DNA from: a virus
Virus record (IMG/VR): IMGVR_UViG_3300031673_000460
Location: 1-24,578 of that record
Length of the DNA: 24,578 nucleotides
Direction: 5' to 3' (one strand)
Shown here: positions 3,942 through 21,523 of the stretch, piece by piece
Numbering within the stretch: the first letter of the stretch is position 1
How the letters are laid out: each line of letters starts with the position of its first letter
Made by a program: the position numbers and the translations under genes
Notes under the pieces: model-generated
Seen by the model: only the letters and a program-made list of their open reading frames with translations
Databases searched by the model: none
Told to the model about the DNA's origin: nothing

Positions 3942-4922
3942 ATGGGAATTAAGATAAACCAATACGCACTAGAAAGACTAACTTTTGGCGACGACGACTA
4001 TTACGACATCGACTATTTTGACGGTGCAAACTATCAAACAGCTAAGATAAAAGGATCGACTATAAAAGCGGGTATTCAAGCGGGTATAACCTCAGATAAT
4101 TTTTATAGTATCGACGGAGTATTAACAGCAAATAGAACCGTTGACGGTGGTTTGTTTAATTTAGGGTTTAATAATCTCGGAAAACTTGTAATTGTATCGG
4201 ATCAATTAGGAGTCAATAATGTAACTTTTATAATAAATAACAACGCCTATAATAATGGTTTTAATATAGAAGATACCGTAACCTCTGAAAGTATTTTTAT
4301 GGTACGAAACGGAGAGGTAAGAATAAACGACGACTACTCTTTACCAATTACTGACGGTTTAAATAATCAGGTTTTAACGACTGACGGTTTAGGACAAGTT
4401 TCGTGGCAAACACCTTTAAAAATAGGTAACTATTCGCAAACCGCATCTAGCACACCAATAACAACAGCCCCCGAACAAACTTTGGTCGGCTCAGGGGTTG
4501 GATCGTTGAGTATTCCCGCAAATGCTTTTGTAGTTGGCGACTCTTTTCATGGTAAAATTGGCGGAAAATTAAACGCAACAGGGGGCGGAGGAAGATCGGA
4601 AATAATATTAAGAATTAAAGCGGGTACAACGGTTTTGGCGAGTACAGGAGTTTTCGAATTAGATACTGCAACGGATCAGGGTTGGGAGTGCGAACTCGAC
4701 TTTACTATCGCTAGTATTGGTGCGGTAGGTCAAATATGTACAAACGGTAATTTTGTCTATACAAAAGACGGAAACAGAACAGTTTTTGGGTATATCTTTC
4801 AGGACGTACAGCCTATTGACACTACTATATCCAATACCTTAGATATAACTTTAGAATGGAACGTTATAAATGGCGGTGACGATATCTACTCGGCTAATTT
4901 TGTACTTTATAAAACATATTAA
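3942..4922 (+). CDS. Tail fibre-like protein
   Basis: This 326-residue protein has an N-terminal attachment-like segment, followed at residues about 50-75 by DGVLTANRTVDGG, a repeat-type motif common in fibre and surface proteins of Bacteroidota and their phages (consensus like DGtLtgNRtV). At about 130-157 it carries LPITDGLNNQVLTTDGLGQVSW, a motif typical of the shaft-to-head junction of collagen-like or collar tail fibres. The C-terminal 170 residues are beta-rich (GSGVGSLSIPANAF, GGKLNATGGGGRSE, YIFQDVQPIDTTIS) and look like a receptor-binding or trimer head domain. The gene begins 4 bases after its neighbour. The fibre call rests on these motifs and on position; receptor specificity cannot be read from the sequence. 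Confidence 0.75.
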   Translation: MGIKINQYALERLTFGDDDYYDIDYFDGANYQTAKIKGSTIKAGIQAGITSDNFYSIDGVLTANRTVDGGLFNLGFNNLGKLVIVSDQLGVNNVTFIINNNAYNNGFNIEDTVTSESIFMVRNGEVRINDDYSLPITDGLNNQVLTTDGLGQVSWQTPLKIGNYSQTASSTPITTAPEQTLVGSGVGSLSIPANAFVVGDSFHGKIGGKLNATGGGGRSEIILRIKAGTTVLASTGVFELDTATDQGWECELDFTIASIGAVGQICTNGNFVYTKDGNRTVFGYIFQDVQPIDTTISNTLDITLEWNVINGGDDIYSANFVLYKTY

Positions 4923-7926: not shown

Positions 7927-8549
7927 GATCAAATATTCAGGAATACACAGATAAACAACTTTTAGATAAGGTAAAAAGTTTAGCGAGTTTTAAGAAAATT
8001 CCGAAAGGTCGTTGGATAATTGGGGTTCGTTCAAATGAAGATGAAACCGATAGGTACGATGACAAGTTTTACGAATATCAGGGCGAAGAGTTTATTCGTG
8101 TAATGTCAGGAACGACCAATGCAAGTTCGACAATATTAAGCGGGGGGTTTCGTAGATACAATAAAATCGGTACAGCAATACTAAAAGCGAATGAGTGGTA
8201 TTATGATGTTTGGCAATGGGGACTACATAAAGGAAAAATGACAGCACTAATACAGGTCGGGGCAAAGGTTAAAGTTCACAGGGACGGAAACATGAATGGT
8301 AAAAGCGAAGAGATCGGAAAGGTTTACGAGGGTTATTACGGTATCAACTATCACACAAACACATACGATTTTAGTTTGAATAGCTTAAAAGTCGTTAAAT
8401 GGATCATAGGCGGTTGGTCTGCGGGTTGTCAGGTAATTAATGAAAGGGCGGAGTACCTAGAACAAATGAATTATTATCGTGAAGCATGGATAACGGACAA
8501 ACAGGAGTTCGTTACTTATGTTTTAATAAACGAGTTCGATCCTGAATAA
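7923..8549 (+). CDS. Putative endolysin, L,D-transpeptidase-like (YkuD-type) fold
   Basis: The 208-residue protein overlaps the spanin candidate by ATGA. The key region is residues 138-170: GINYHTNTYDF with His144, then GGWSAGCQVI with Ser166, Gly168 and Cys169. A His upstream of an S-x-G-C motif is the catalytic arrangement of YkuD-type L,D-transpeptidases (HGxx...SHGC), and a WSAGCQV version occurs in phage cell-wall proteins. No signal peptide is visible, consistent with holin-dependent release. No amidase or muramidase motif was found elsewhere in the window, so this is the best peptidoglycan-degrading candidate. Whether it cuts or exchanges peptide cross-links cannot be told from sequence. 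The N-terminal 120 residues are unassigned. Confidence 0.6.
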   Translation: MRSNIQEYTDKQLLDKVKSLASFKKIPKGRWIIGVRSNEDETDRYDDKFYEYQGEEFIRVMSGTTNASSTILSGGFRRYNKIGTAILKANEWYYDVWQWGLHKGKMTALIQVGAKVKVHRDGNMNGKSEEIGKVYEGYYGINYHTNTYDFSLNSLKVVKWIIGGWSAGCQVINERAEYLEQMNYYREAWITDKQEFVTYVLINEFDPE

Positions 8550-8582: not shown

Positions 8583-8623
8583 AAAGGGGGGTTATAGTTT
8601 TCGGATTATAGCCCCCTTTTTTT
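8583..8623 (+). terminator. Rho-independent terminator of the late/lysis operon
   Basis: AAAGGGGG pairs with CCCCCTTT (eight base pairs); the stem continues as TTATAG against TTATAG with one bulged G and wobble pairs, a loop around TTTCGGA, and a run of seven T's at 8617-8623. It follows the last lysis gene and precedes the first early promoter. Confidence 0.85.
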
Positions 8624-16725: not shown

Positions 16726-16747
16726 TAACGCTATAACGTACACTACG

Positions 16748-16780
16748 AAAGGCACTCGGTAAAATGGGTGCTTTTTTTTT
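16748..16780 (+). terminator. Rho-independent terminator of recombination operon
   Basis: AAAGGCACTC pairs with GGGTGCTTTT (about ten base pairs, two wobbles) around a GGTAAAAT loop, followed by a T run; two more T runs extend beyond it to 16800. It follows the HTH gene by 22 bases. Confidence 0.9.
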
Positions 16781-17775: not shown

Positions 17776-17783
17776 TATATTTG
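17776..17783 (+). promoter_or_regulatory. Promoter-like -7 box directly before a long hairpin
   Basis: TATATTTG fits TAnnTTTG and is preceded by TTAATTAAATTATCG as in the other promoters. No good TTTG is present 19-21 bases upstream. Transcription would begin about 17788-17790, the first base of the hairpin. Downstream GGCTCGTT differs from the TACTGTT found at the other sites. Confidence 0.55.
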
Positions 17784-17787
17784 GCTC

Positions 17788-17862
17788 GTTATGTTTTAAA
17801 AGGATCTAGGGGCGTGTTTCTACATACGTCTTTAGATCCGTTTTAACGTCATAACTTTTTTT
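17788..17862 (+). ncRNA. 28-bp hairpin plus T7: small RNA, attenuator or terminator
   Basis: The pairing, from outside in, is: GTTATG (17788-17793) with CATAAC (17850-17855), six pairs; an internal loop; TTAAAA (17796-17801) with TTTTAA (17841-17846), six pairs; one bulged G; GGATCTA (17802-17808) with TAGATCC (17833-17839), seven pairs; then nine pairs with several G-T wobbles up to a TTCTAC loop (17818-17823). Seven T's (17856-17862) follow immediately. A promoter-like box ends four bases before it. It could be an independent small RNA of about 75 bases, an attenuator in the leader of the packaging operon, or the terminator of the upstream unit. The structure is seen directly; the role is inference. 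Confidence 0.75.
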
Positions 17863-17893
17863 AAACATACACAAACACCAAAAAACATTAAAA

Positions 17894-18136
17894 ATGGCTA
17901 AAAACGACGCAAAACCGTATAAGAACGTGAAATGGTGGCAAACACTTATCGGCGTACCATTTCTAGTATTAACTTTCTTTCTTTGGCTTATAGATAGGCA
18001 AATACACGTTTTGTTACCTCATGCAAAACACCCCAATTTTAAGGAGTGGTTAAAAGACGATACTAGCTTTAAGCTAACAATGGCGAGAATAATAATTTTT
18101 GCTATTCCTATCATAATTTATAAGCTAGTTTGGTAA
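17894..18136 (+). CDS. Small two-helix membrane protein
   Basis: The 80-residue protein has a basic start (AKNDAKPYKNVKWW), a first membrane segment (QTLIGVPFLVLTFFLWLI), a polar loop of about 30 residues (RQIHVLLPHAKHPNFKEWLKDD) and a second segment (MARIIIFAIPIIIYKLVW). Both ends would be on the same side of the membrane. It is the first gene after the hairpin and its stop overlaps the next start (TAATG). No family is recognised. Roles as a superinfection-exclusion or membrane-anchoring protein are possible but not supported by a motif. Confidence 0.75.
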   Translation: MAKNDAKPYKNVKWWQTLIGVPFLVLTFFLWLIDRQIHVLLPHAKHPNFKEWLKDDTSFKLTMARIIIFAIPIIIYKLVW

Positions 18137-18870
18137 TGGATAGCAAAAGCAAAATCGAAACAATAGAGATAGGAAAATTAAAACTGAATAAGGAAAACCC
18201 GAGATCTATTAATGGCGATAAGTTTAAAAAGCTAGTAAGATCTATTAAAAAGTTTCCTGAAATGCTTAAAATTAGACCTATTGTAGTCGATGAAAAAATG
18301 ACTATTTTAGGCGGAAATATGCGTTATAAAGCCTGTGTCGAGATAGGGCTTACGGAAGTTCCTGTAATTGTAGTAAAAGGATTAAACAGCGAACAGGCAA
18401 AACAGTTTATTATTAAAGATAACGTCGGTTATGGCGAGTGGGATTGGGAAATGTTGGCGGATGAATGGGACGTGGTAAAGTTGAAAGATTGGGGCTTAGA
18501 CTTGCCAATTAAAGCGGAATTAAGCGACGAAGAGTATAGCACGAAGGTAGATAGCCCAATATATGAAACAAAAGCCTTAAAACCAACGGAAAACGAGTTG
18601 TACGACTTATCTAAGTATAATGAATTGGTCGAAGATATCGAAAAGTCAACTATAAGCAAAGAACAAAAAACATTTTTAAAACTCTCAGCGACTAGGCATA
18701 TTAAATTTAATTACTCTAAAATAGCCGATTATTACGCACACAGCGAAGAAGGTACTCAGGAGTTAATCGAAGACTCAGCCTTAGTAATTATAGATTATGA
18801 TAAGGCTATCGAAAAGGGCTTTGTTGATGTTTACAGGAATATCGAAAATTTATCCTTAATAGATGAATGA
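18136..18870 (+). CDS. ParB/Srx-fold domain protein of phage type
   Basis: The start is ATG 18136, overlapping the previous stop by one base (TAATG); 244 residues. Residues 8-90 are a ParB-like N-terminal domain: IEIGKLKLNKENPR, KFPEMLKIRPIVVDEKMTILGGNMRYKA (the G-G-N-M-R motif replaces the usual GxHR) and GLTEVPVIVV. After QAKQFIIKDNVGYGEWDWEMLADEW, a pattern typical of phage ParB-like proteins next to terminases and methyltransferases, the C-terminal half is helical and unassigned. It overlaps the glycosyltransferase-like gene by eight bases. The role may be DNA binding, CTP-dependent switching or support of DNA modification; partitioning is unlikely because no ParA is seen. Confidence 0.8.
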   Translation: MDSKSKIETIEIGKLKLNKENPRSINGDKFKKLVRSIKKFPEMLKIRPIVVDEKMTILGGNMRYKACVEIGLTEVPVIVVKGLNSEQAKQFIIKDNVGYGEWDWEMLADEWDVVKLKDWGLDLPIKAELSDEEYSTKVDSPIYETKALKPTENELYDLSKYNELVEDIEKSTISKEQKTFLKLSATRHIKFNYSKIADYYAHSEEGTQELIEDSALVIIDYDKAIEKGFVDVYRNIENLSLIDE

Positions 18871-19726
18871 CTTTGTAATATTTATTTTGTCGCATGGTAG
18901 GGCTAACGGTGTTTGTACGGTTAAAACACTAAAAAAACAAGGCTATACGGGTAAAATAATAATGGTAATAGATAATGAGGACGATACAGCAGACGAATAT
19001 TATAATAATTTTGACGATGTAGAAATGTTTGACAAAAAAGCAATATCTAAAACATTCGAAGAGGGCGATAATTTCGGAGATAGGCGAACAATAGTTTATG
19101 CGAGAAATGCCTGTTTTAATATTGCAAAAAAAAGAGGCTATAAATACTTTATGCAATTAGACGACGATTATACTAGGTTTGAATATAGAATTTATAATAA
19201 TAAGATACAAAAACCAAAATTTATAACAGACCTCGACTCGGTACTATTGGCGTTATTAGACTTTTATAAAAAAACCCCTTTCGATACAATATCAATCGCA
19301 CAAGGTGGCGACTTTATAGGGGGTAAGCATAATCGAATGGCGAAGAAACCTACAATATATCGCAAATGTATGAATACGTTTATTTGCAGTACGGAAAGAC
19401 CGTTTAAATTTATAGGTAGGATTAACGAGGACGTAAACACTTACACAAAGGAACAAAGTAAAGGTTTATTAATGGGCACGTTGCCAATGGTTTCAATAGT
19501 TCAGAAAACAACTCAAAGCAATAAAGGGGGTATGACCGAAACTTATTTGGATCAGGGGACGTATGTAAAGTCTTTTTATACAATTATGTTTTCGCCCTCA
19601 TGCTGTACGATTAAACCAATGGGCGATACGAAAATGAGATTGCACCACTCAATAAATTGGGAAAATGCAGTTCCTAAAATAATAAACGAAAATAATAAAT
19701 TATGTCCGACACATCCGACACTATAA
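18863..19726 (+). CDS. Glycosyltransferase-like protein, TET-associated (TAGT) type
   Basis: The 287-residue protein has a GT-A-like fold pattern: FILSHGRANGVCTVKTLKK at the start, the strand IIMVIDNEDDT (33-42), ARNACFNIAKKRGYKYFMQLDDDY (80-103) with an Asp triad in place of the DxD metal site, NEDVNTY at about 189, and an end motif RLHHSINWENAVPKII. I recognise this order from the TET-associated glycosyltransferases predicted to add sugars to hydroxylated bases in phage DNA. No oxygenase, hydroxymethylase or base kinase is visible in this window. Partners are the ParB-like protein upstream and the small terminase, which overlaps its end by 25 bases. The DNA substrate is inferred from the family. 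Confidence 0.65.
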   Translation: MNDFVIFILSHGRANGVCTVKTLKKQGYTGKIIMVIDNEDDTADEYYNNFDDVEMFDKKAISKTFEEGDNFGDRRTIVYARNACFNIAKKRGYKYFMQLDDDYTRFEYRIYNNKIQKPKFITDLDSVLLALLDFYKKTPFDTISIAQGGDFIGGKHNRMAKKPTIYRKCMNTFICSTERPFKFIGRINEDVNTYTKEQSKGLLMGTLPMVSIVQKTTQSNKGGMTETYLDQGTYVKSFYTIMFSPSCCTIKPMGDTKMRLHHSINWENAVPKIINENNKLCPTHPTL

Positions 19727-20070
19727 AAAAGAAATTGCTAGTCGCTCTCGAAAAGTCTTTGGGGGTTGTTACAACAGCCTGTAAAAATGTAGGGGTACAC
19801 CGTTCAACCTATTACGATTATTACAATAATGATCCTGAGTTTAAAAAGGGGGTTGACGATATACAAAATGTCGCGTTAGACTTTGCAGAAAGCCAACTAC
19901 ACCAACAAATTCAAGACGGGAATACAAGTGCGACTATATTCTTTTTAAAGACTAAAGGAAAAAAGAGGGGGTACGTTGAACGTCAAGAGGTGCAAGAGGT
20001 TGTAAAAATGGCGGACTTTAGTGGTTGGACTGATGAACAAATACGATCTTATTTAGACTCTAATAGGTAA
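19702..20070 (+). CDS. terS: Terminase small subunit
   Basis: The 122-residue protein has an N-terminal helix-turn-helix (KLLVALEKSLGVVTTACKNVGVHRSTYYDYYNNDPEF), then an oligomerisation helix (VDDIQNVALDFAESQLHQQIQDGNTSATIFFLKTKGKKRGYVER). The sequence GNTSATIFFLKTKGKKRGY is a hallmark of a large group of small terminases. It recognises phage DNA at the packaging start site and delivers it to the large subunit encoded 4 bases downstream. The gene overlaps the glycosyltransferase gene. The pac/cos site could lie within or near this gene but was not identified. Confidence 0.88.
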   Translation: MSDTSDTIKKKLLVALEKSLGVVTTACKNVGVHRSTYYDYYNNDPEFKKGVDDIQNVALDFAESQLHQQIQDGNTSATIFFLKTKGKKRGYVERQEVQEVVKMADFSGWTDEQIRSYLDSNR

Positions 20071-20074
20071 AGTA

Positions 20075-21430
20075 ATGAACAAAAAAGAGTCTTTACTTTT
20101 TGCTATGAGGTGCGAAATGGCGAGGCGTAACTTTTGGGACTTTTGCCTCTATTACGATAAGCAACTATTCGAGGCACGACCATTTCTTAAAGAGGTGGCG
20201 GAGGCGTTTCAGGACGTTGCTAACGGTACTATTAAGAGTCTATCGGTATCTATGCCTCCGAGAGCGGGTAAAAGCTATGTAACGTCTTTATTTTGTGCGT
20301 GGACGTTAGGGAATAACCCTACGGAGTCAGTCATGCGTAACACTTGCACAGCTACATTATACGCTAAATTCAGTTATGACGTTAGGGCTGTTGTAATGAG
20401 TCAGCGGTTTAGTAACGTTTTCCCCGATGTTAAAATGAGTCCTGATAAAGCCAACTTACAGGGTTGGAACACTAATAAAAGCCGAATGGTTGGTTACTTT
20501 GGTGCGGGGGTAGGCGGGACTATCATTGGGTTTGGGGCGAGTCTGTTGGCTATTACCGATGATCTTTATACAGGTATTGAAACAGCCCTAAACGAAACAG
20601 CTAACGATAAGGTTATACAATGGAAACAAGCAACACACGACAGTCGTATGGAGTCAGGATGTAGGCGGATAGACATAGGGACTCGTTGGACTATTGGGGA
20701 CGTTATAGGTTATCAAATGGAAAATAACGAGTATGATAAGTCGATAATAGTAAGGGCTTTGAGTGAACAGGACGAGTCGTTTTGTGAGGCTGTAATGACG
20801 ACCGAAGAGTATATTGATAAAAGGAATAAGACAGCGAAAGAAATTTGGTTGGCTGAGTACCAACAAAAGCCCGTTGACTTACTAGGTAGAATGTTCGCAG
20901 ACCTTAATACTATCAAAGAGATAGACTTTCGGAAGATACATAAACAGGTCGAGGGGTGCGTGGCTTATGTCGATGTATCTGATCAGGGCAAAGACTACAC
21001 CGCTGCCGCGGTTTGCGGGGTAATAGGCGATAAACTTTATGTAGTGGATTATCTATTTTCTAGGGAAAATACGGACGTTACGATACCTTTAACAGCCTCG
21101 TTAATGGATAAATGGAATGTAAGTTATTGTCGAGTCGAGTCTAATTCAATGGGCGCAATGTTTTCAAGGGAGTTACAAAGAAAGGTAAGAAAAACTAAAA
21201 TGTTACAGGTGCATAATACTACTAATAAAATGACTCGAATACTTATGCAGTCGGCTTTTATTACTCAAAAAATGATCTTTGTAAGCTATGAAAACATACA
21301 ATGTCAATCCTTTTTAGACAATGTTTATTCGTTCAGTAAAGAGGGGAAAAATAAGAATGACGACGCCCCTGATTGTCTAGCGGGACTATCAATGTTCGTT
21401 CAATCTATGTTTAAAGCGGTTCGATTTTAG
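20075..21430 (+). CDS. terL: Terminase large subunit (ATPase and nuclease)
   Basis: The 451-residue length is standard. ATPase domain: Walker A SMPPRAGKSY at about 59-68, Walker B-like LLAITDD at 157-163, and motif IGTRWTIGD at 201-209. Nuclease domain of RuvC/RNase H type: YVDVSDQGKDY with Asp300, YCRVESNSMG with Glu355, and the pair DDAPD near 429-433. It drives ATP-dependent DNA packaging into the prohead and cuts the concatemer. It ends a unit that starts with the hairpin region at 17788. No portal, protease or capsid gene follows, so those must lie outside the window. Confidence 0.95.
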   Translation: MNKKESLLFAMRCEMARRNFWDFCLYYDKQLFEARPFLKEVAEAFQDVANGTIKSLSVSMPPRAGKSYVTSLFCAWTLGNNPTESVMRNTCTATLYAKFSYDVRAVVMSQRFSNVFPDVKMSPDKANLQGWNTNKSRMVGYFGAGVGGTIIGFGASLLAITDDLYTGIETALNETANDKVIQWKQATHDSRMESGCRRIDIGTRWTIGDVIGYQMENNEYDKSIIVRALSEQDESFCEAVMTTEEYIDKRNKTAKEIWLAEYQQKPVDLLGRMFADLNTIKEIDFRKIHKQVEGCVAYVDVSDQGKDYTAAAVCGVIGDKLYVVDYLFSRENTDVTIPLTASLMDKWNVSYCRVESNSMGAMFSRELQRKVRKTKMLQVHNTTNKMTRILMQSAFITQKMIFVSYENIQCQSFLDNVYSFSKEGKNKNDDAPDCLAGLSMFVQSMFKAVRF

Positions 21431-21493: not shown

Positions 21494-21523
21494 GTTTATA
21501 TAAAATTAATTTATGTATGTTTG
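21494..21523 (+). promoter_or_regulatory. Bacteroidota-type promoter
   Basis: TATGTTTG at 21516-21523 in the shared context AAATTAATTTATG...GTACTGTTGAAAC; a weak -33-like TTTA lies at 21494-21497, 18 bases upstream. It drives the gene starting at 21561 and shows that in-frame ATGs further upstream (21513) lie in untranscribed DNA. Confidence 0.8.

Follow-up and report, generated by a model that had tools for sequence, protein, structure and literature searches.

The window, by which we mean the whole stretch of 24,578 bases that was analysed, is an IMG/VR virus record classed as linear. Its genes come in this order: first those without assigned function, next an endolysin-like gene, then genes for replication and recombination, and, behind the hairpin studied here, a packaging operon. 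The operon opens with a small membrane-type protein (17894-18136, plus strand), which has no clear Pfam or PHROG family and which belongs to a family with the motif LG..L.P.......DR; a profile of this family, built in this analysis, covers 80 homologous ORFs in the fetched loci. It is followed on the plus strand by a ParB-like protein (18130-18870; PF02195, phrog_620), a TET-associated glycosyltransferase or TAGT (18863-19726; PF20691, phrog_842), and the small (TerS, 19702-20070; phrog_309) and large (TerL, 20075-21430; PF17289, phrog_38) subunits of terminase. An earlier reading made from the sequence alone had listed membrane protein, ParB-like, glycosyltransferase and terminase genes here; Pfam and PHROG matches support ParB-like, TAGT, TerS and TerL, and the first protein is indeed small and hydrophobic. 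The nearest TerL among annotated phage records is 44% identical, so an isolate is not available.

Ahead of the operon, on the plus strand, stands the box TATATTTG (17776-17783), which matches TAnnTTTG, the Bacteroidetes -7 promoter element. As the sequence-only reading had stated, four bases (GCTC, 17784-17787) separate it from the hairpin. The window holds seven intergenic TAnnTTTG boxes in AT-rich context (8689, 14482, 16835, 17776, 21516, 22427 and 23822), and from this promoter type we infer a host in the phylum Bacteroidetes. In Flavobacterium johnsoniae, transcription was measured to start 4-5 nt after the TAnnTTTG element, and the mean leader is 33 nt long (PMC6847099). The same spacing predicts a start at 17788-17789 on the plus strand, and 17788 is also the first base of the hairpin. 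Counted from there to the start codon at 17894, the leader would be 106 nt long, and in the window the interval from hairpin to gene contains no further TAnnTTTG box. The six other promoters are mostly followed by 4 nt and then GTT or GTC, and small 5'-terminal stems open the leaders at 21516, 22427 and 14482 (GTTGA..TCAAC, GTTGT..GCAAC and GTC..GAC, respectively).

The hairpin (17788-17855, plus strand) spans 68 nt and contains 28 pairs, arranged in stems of 6 (17788-17793/17850-17855), 6 (17796-17801/17841-17846), 7 (17802-17808/17833-17839) and 9 pairs (17809-17817/17824-17832). It is interrupted by a 2x3 internal loop and a one-base bulge (G 17840) and capped by the six-base loop UUCUAC (17818-17823). 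Stem lengths and loop size are exactly as first read, and so is the abrupt end: the last paired base, 17855, directly adjoins seven T's (17856-17862, plus strand), which become six in L003 and L168 and are not conserved across the clade. RNA folding, which that reading had proposed as a check, gave -30.7 kcal/mol for 17780-17870, compared with -12.3 +/- 2.9 for shuffled sequences (z -6.5; 0 of 200 shuffles as stable); the 95-nt leader reached z -7.3. No 75-nt fold on either strand of the window has a lower energy, and the runner-up, at 8546 (-29.3), contains an ordinary terminator. Because the apical stem has four G.U pairs, the RNA is far more stable on the plus than on the minus strand (-29.3 versus -16.6). 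The [AG]TGTTT tract described below includes a possible two-codon mini-ORF, ATG TTT TAA (17791-17799, plus strand), and behind the T run an A-rich, unstructured linker (17863-17893, plus strand), strongly conserved in L002, L003 and L007, leads to the start codon. Against Rfam release 15, the window gave no match above the gathering cut-off, its best sub-threshold hits being chance matches, and the leaders of 18 relatives had no match.

Four IMG/VR contigs (L002, L003, L007 and L168) carry the same promoter, hairpin and linker, with TATATTTG invariant in all of them. Their identity to the window is 89% over 200 nt around the hairpin and about 79% in the flanking genes. In these hairpins, 96.4% of cells are paired, as opposed to 33-54% when the register is slid. 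Differences fall in the loop, in the bulge or, mostly, at paired positions where wobble preserves the pairing (G.U to A-U, G-C to G.U, U-A to U.G). They amount to four further pair types, all reached by one-sided wobble changes; no double-sided pair change was found within single families, and the covariation in this set, taken alone, is therefore suggestive only. The layout of an intrinsic terminator, with a stable hairpin directly followed by a U-run, is present in the window, L003 and L168. A pattern search with the window's own stem returned close relatives and unrelated matches only, and blastn of the leader against phage records returned only chance matches.

A search with a TerL alignment yielded 80 loci, which were then scanned for a box with structure downstream of it. 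About 20 divergent relatives (including L073, L079, L093, L095, L098, L099, L105, L114, L116, L125, L130, L138, L143, L146, L147 and L022) have a host-type box followed by a hairpin of 10-20 bp or more ahead of the packaging operon. In the layout of the clade, TAnnTTTG and a spacer of about 4-9 nt are followed in most cases by the tract [AG]TGTTT and then by the hairpin, which an A-rich linker connects to the gene that opens the operon. In the divergent relatives, 11-22 nt (33 in L022) separate the box from the hairpin core, and representatives with a box have leader z-scores of -2.3 to -5.4, which are not independent because the families are related. The first gene usually encodes the same small membrane protein, with a small basic protein instead in L022, L092, L101 and L129. 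Lying 5' of the hairpin, the tract is short, single-stranded and often UGAUGUUUU; it is specific to structured leaders, being present in 13 of 30 of them but in 3 of the 128 others. Stem sequences differ completely (median identity of hairpin cores 49%). The plus-strand fold beats the minus-strand fold in 21 of 23 cases, in a test that leans towards plus because the core borders were chosen there.

What follows the hairpin varies. A U-run directly 3' of it is found in the window family, L074, L105, L111, L116 and L130, and T-rich tails in L079, L125, L092 and L129; nine lineages (L073, L093, L095, L098, L099, L114, L138, L147 and L022) have no U-run, which is present in only about half of the lineages. 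In L079 (5104-5192), as in L080, L082, L085 and L086, a second TATATTTG box comes after the hairpin, 4 nt before a start codon, and in this family the hairpin RNA and the gene could have separate promoters. The hairpin itself is common but dispensable. Relatives with the same first gene and no hairpin exist, some with the start codon only 4 nt after the box (L117, L119, L144, L148, L149 and L254), others with leaders of 15-20 nt (L075, L078, L081, L083 and L150), so the hairpin is not essential. The flank examined in the ParB-based relatives L009-L019 does not show the element because their upstream gene order differs.

Across related leaders, pairing is kept while the sequence changes, the pattern that defines structured RNAs as a class. 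For example, the apical loop UUUUCUGUUUUG, with small variants, recurs in L125, L130, L147, L198-L205, L246 and L250, and both arms of the stem change around it, as in GGGGGUUGG/CCGGCCCCC and GGGGAACGG/CCGUUCCCC. Similarly, L092, L101, L129 and L259 keep a long loop while the base of the stem is altered on both sides; the stems of L092 and L129, GGGAUGGG/CCCAUCCC versus GGGACAUGG/CCAUGUCCC, were compared by eye, with registers one base apart and without a column count. The sequence-only reading had named a lack of compensatory changes in relatives as one ground for its refutation. In the window family the changes are one-sided wobbles, but among related leaders the two arms are altered jointly while the loop stays constant, so the reading is not refuted on this ground. 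Such comparisons indicate that the pairing, and in one subgroup the loop, is kept under selection. Since related phages maintain a hairpin at this place with quite different stems, it is a real control element at the head of this messenger RNA, not a fold that arose by chance.

To test the layout as a prediction, TerL was searched again from another lead sequence, which supplied 12 further non-redundant regions upstream of the membrane gene. Eight of them (L198, L203, L208, L213, L217, L224, L237 and L246) have the box, the tract or a close variant of it, and the hairpin; for L203, L208 and L217, whose start codons had been misassigned, the hairpin was identified by eye, and the box of L217 is an imperfect match. 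Among the rest, L254 is leaderless, L251 has a basic-protein gene first, and L231 and L239 are too short to judge.

We consider it probable that the hairpin acts in cis, after initiation, as a structured 5' leader of the packaging operon; this reading fits all cases. Host-type RNA polymerase would start at about 17788, and the nascent RNA would fold at once into the hairpin; the same RNA would then extend across the A-rich linker and cover the genes for the membrane protein, ParB, glycosyltransferase and terminase. Clade-wide, the element would consist of the short, single-stranded [AG]UGUUU tract and the hairpin behind it. How such a leader might work is a more tentative matter. The leading candidate, though we would not yet bet on it, is control of elongation by attenuation or antitermination, ahead of protection of the mRNA 5' end, which we rank second. 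Within the leader reading, elongation control suits the window best, given a hairpin with T7, genes beyond it, and a linear tract next to a hairpin, a combination also found in nut or LoaP sites. In the window lineage, hairpin and U7 would release part of the transcripts unless polymerase were carried past them by a factor of phage or host origin, or by a ribosome translating the putative AUG-UUU mini-ORF. Attenuation as it stands is not the property that the lineages share, since only about half of them place a U-run behind the hairpin. Two further candidates were rejected. Individual cases (L143, L073, L095 and L114) seemed to favour pairing between the 5' tract and the start-codon region, but the idea did not survive a swap control (mean of -5.48 for self versus -5.37 kcal/mol for cross pairing; permutation p 0.39). 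The stems of relatives mostly fall short of two helical turns, so an RNase III site is not a shared property.

Protection of the mRNA, which overlaps with the leader reading as a sub-mechanism of it, would have the RNA start inside a stem, so that RNA pyrophosphohydrolase and the RNases that depend on a 5' end cannot grip the packaging mRNA. The leader of T7 gene 10 is a 5'-terminal stem-loop stabiliser of this kind. So are ompA and papA (cited in PMC3997798), and a stem at the very 5' end is what the window lineage shares with all three. E. coli mRNAs are stabilised by 5' secondary structures (review PMC3997798), the predicted start in the window coincides with the first paired base, small GTTG..CAAC or GTC..GAC stems likewise stand at the front of the leaders at 21516, 22427 and 14482, and the structure is kept while the sequence turns over. 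In most relatives, however, the hairpin is not 5'-terminal: the core starts 11-22 nt after the box, which would leave about 7-17 unpaired 5' bases, and both the conserved [AG]UGUUU tract and the conserved loop of one subgroup are left unexplained. We regard stabilisation as possible but rather doubtful.

The sequence-only reading had offered either a small RNA gene of about 75 bases or an attenuator; a conserved structured leader of the packaging operon is what emerges. The attenuator stays a candidate within it, and the self-contained small RNA, which would end at the T run and act in trans, now looks improbable. Promoter, hairpin and T7 are contiguous in the window, and L111, L116 and L130 look like textbook terminators behind a promoter, but the U-run that would be the gene's own terminator is missing from the nine lineages named above, about half of the total, whereas the promoter is conserved among relatives. 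With so many lineages lacking it, the shared function is more than termination, and for the clade as a whole a small RNA that acts in trans is unlikely. Moreover, the hairpin always lies between promoter and operon, with the packaging genes directly downstream, and a second TATATTTG box behind it occurs in the L079 family alone. A strong hairpin with T7, and no other terminator between 17731, where the upstream operon ends, and 17776, could suggest an ordinary terminator of that operon. This is very unlikely: the hairpin is 3' of the promoter in every family with a recognisable box, so that the new transcript would stop too; the U-run is not conserved; and the clear intrinsic terminators of the window (16747-16776 and ~8583-8616), unlike this hairpin, precede the next promoter. 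Least credible of all is a site that works as DNA, be it a packaging start, a ParB-binding palindrome or a replication hairpin. The inverted repeat does adjoin the ParB-like and terminase genes, but its four G.U pairs in the window, with more in relatives, would be G.T mismatches in DNA, plus-strand RNA is favoured in 21 of 23 cases, and the relation to the promoter is always fixed.

Known systems offer partial parallels to the cis-acting leader that we prefer. Lambda nut, composed of boxA and boxB, and HK022 put, composed of two stem-loops, are antitermination sites, and they resemble the phage leader in placing a short linear tract and a hairpin near the start of a phage transcript. Put differs by its two stem-loops, and a boxA consensus is not shown in the phage leader. 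As a nut/put analogue, the element would be a new class of phage regulatory site in uncultured Bacteroidetes-type phages: the linear UGAUGUUUU box together with the hairpin, whose loop is UUUUCUGUUUUG in one subgroup, would stand at the head of the packaging operon and be recognised by a phage or host factor that sets polymerase entry into the operon, working with the divergent Bacteroidetes sigma factor; we give this specific version only a modest chance. Bacteroides tetQ has a leader-peptide attenuator. With the trp, erm and tetQ attenuators, the phage leader shares a possible mini-ORF, AUG UUU UAA, followed by hairpin and U-run, but the mini-ORF is putative, no alternative hairpin was seen, and the peptides are not conserved: the [AG]TGTTT tract is enriched while the peptides encoded differ between leaders. 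The LoaP-responsive leader of the Bacillus dfn operon (PMC12691694) likewise has a promoter-proximal hairpin before an operon and terminator signals in the leader. There, however, the LoaP site is a small hairpin of UNCG type that precedes a separate terminator (PMC12691694), whereas the phage leader has one hairpin and no UNCG loop. UpxY paralogs occur in Bacteroidetes; neither a NusG paralog or NusG-like protein nor a known antiterminator was found among the ORFs scanned in the window, which is a fragment.

Other structured RNAs turned up in the fetched loci. L190 (597-720, plus strand) has another promoter-led RNA of about 100 nt that ends in a T run, and RNA of the same type lies on the reverse strand of L189 and L193 (reverse-complement coordinates 5380 and 1252, respectively). 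In three different sequences its arms resemble an H-type pseudoknot, for example GATTCGAC/GTCGAATC crossing ACCTTTATAC/GTATGGAGGT; it has no Rfam match and is probably a separate small RNA gene. In L004, an operon leader behind TerL (3942-4026) starts with GTCAAAAGGGA at the predicted start, ends with TCTCTTTTGAC and T5, and forms an 11-bp terminal stem around a long loop.

In the literature searched, consisting of open-access papers only, we found no description of this leader element, and a structured leader of this kind, ahead of the packaging genes of uncultured Bacteroidetes-type phages, is apparently undescribed. The analysis sets a real structured leader apart from the many terminator-like hairpins of phage genomes. 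Little is known of the timing of packaging genes in Bacteroidetes phages, and here is a concrete, repeatedly conserved RNA element for which a place, a consensus layout and natural variants by the dozen are now at hand, which makes its function testable in cultivable Flavobacterium.
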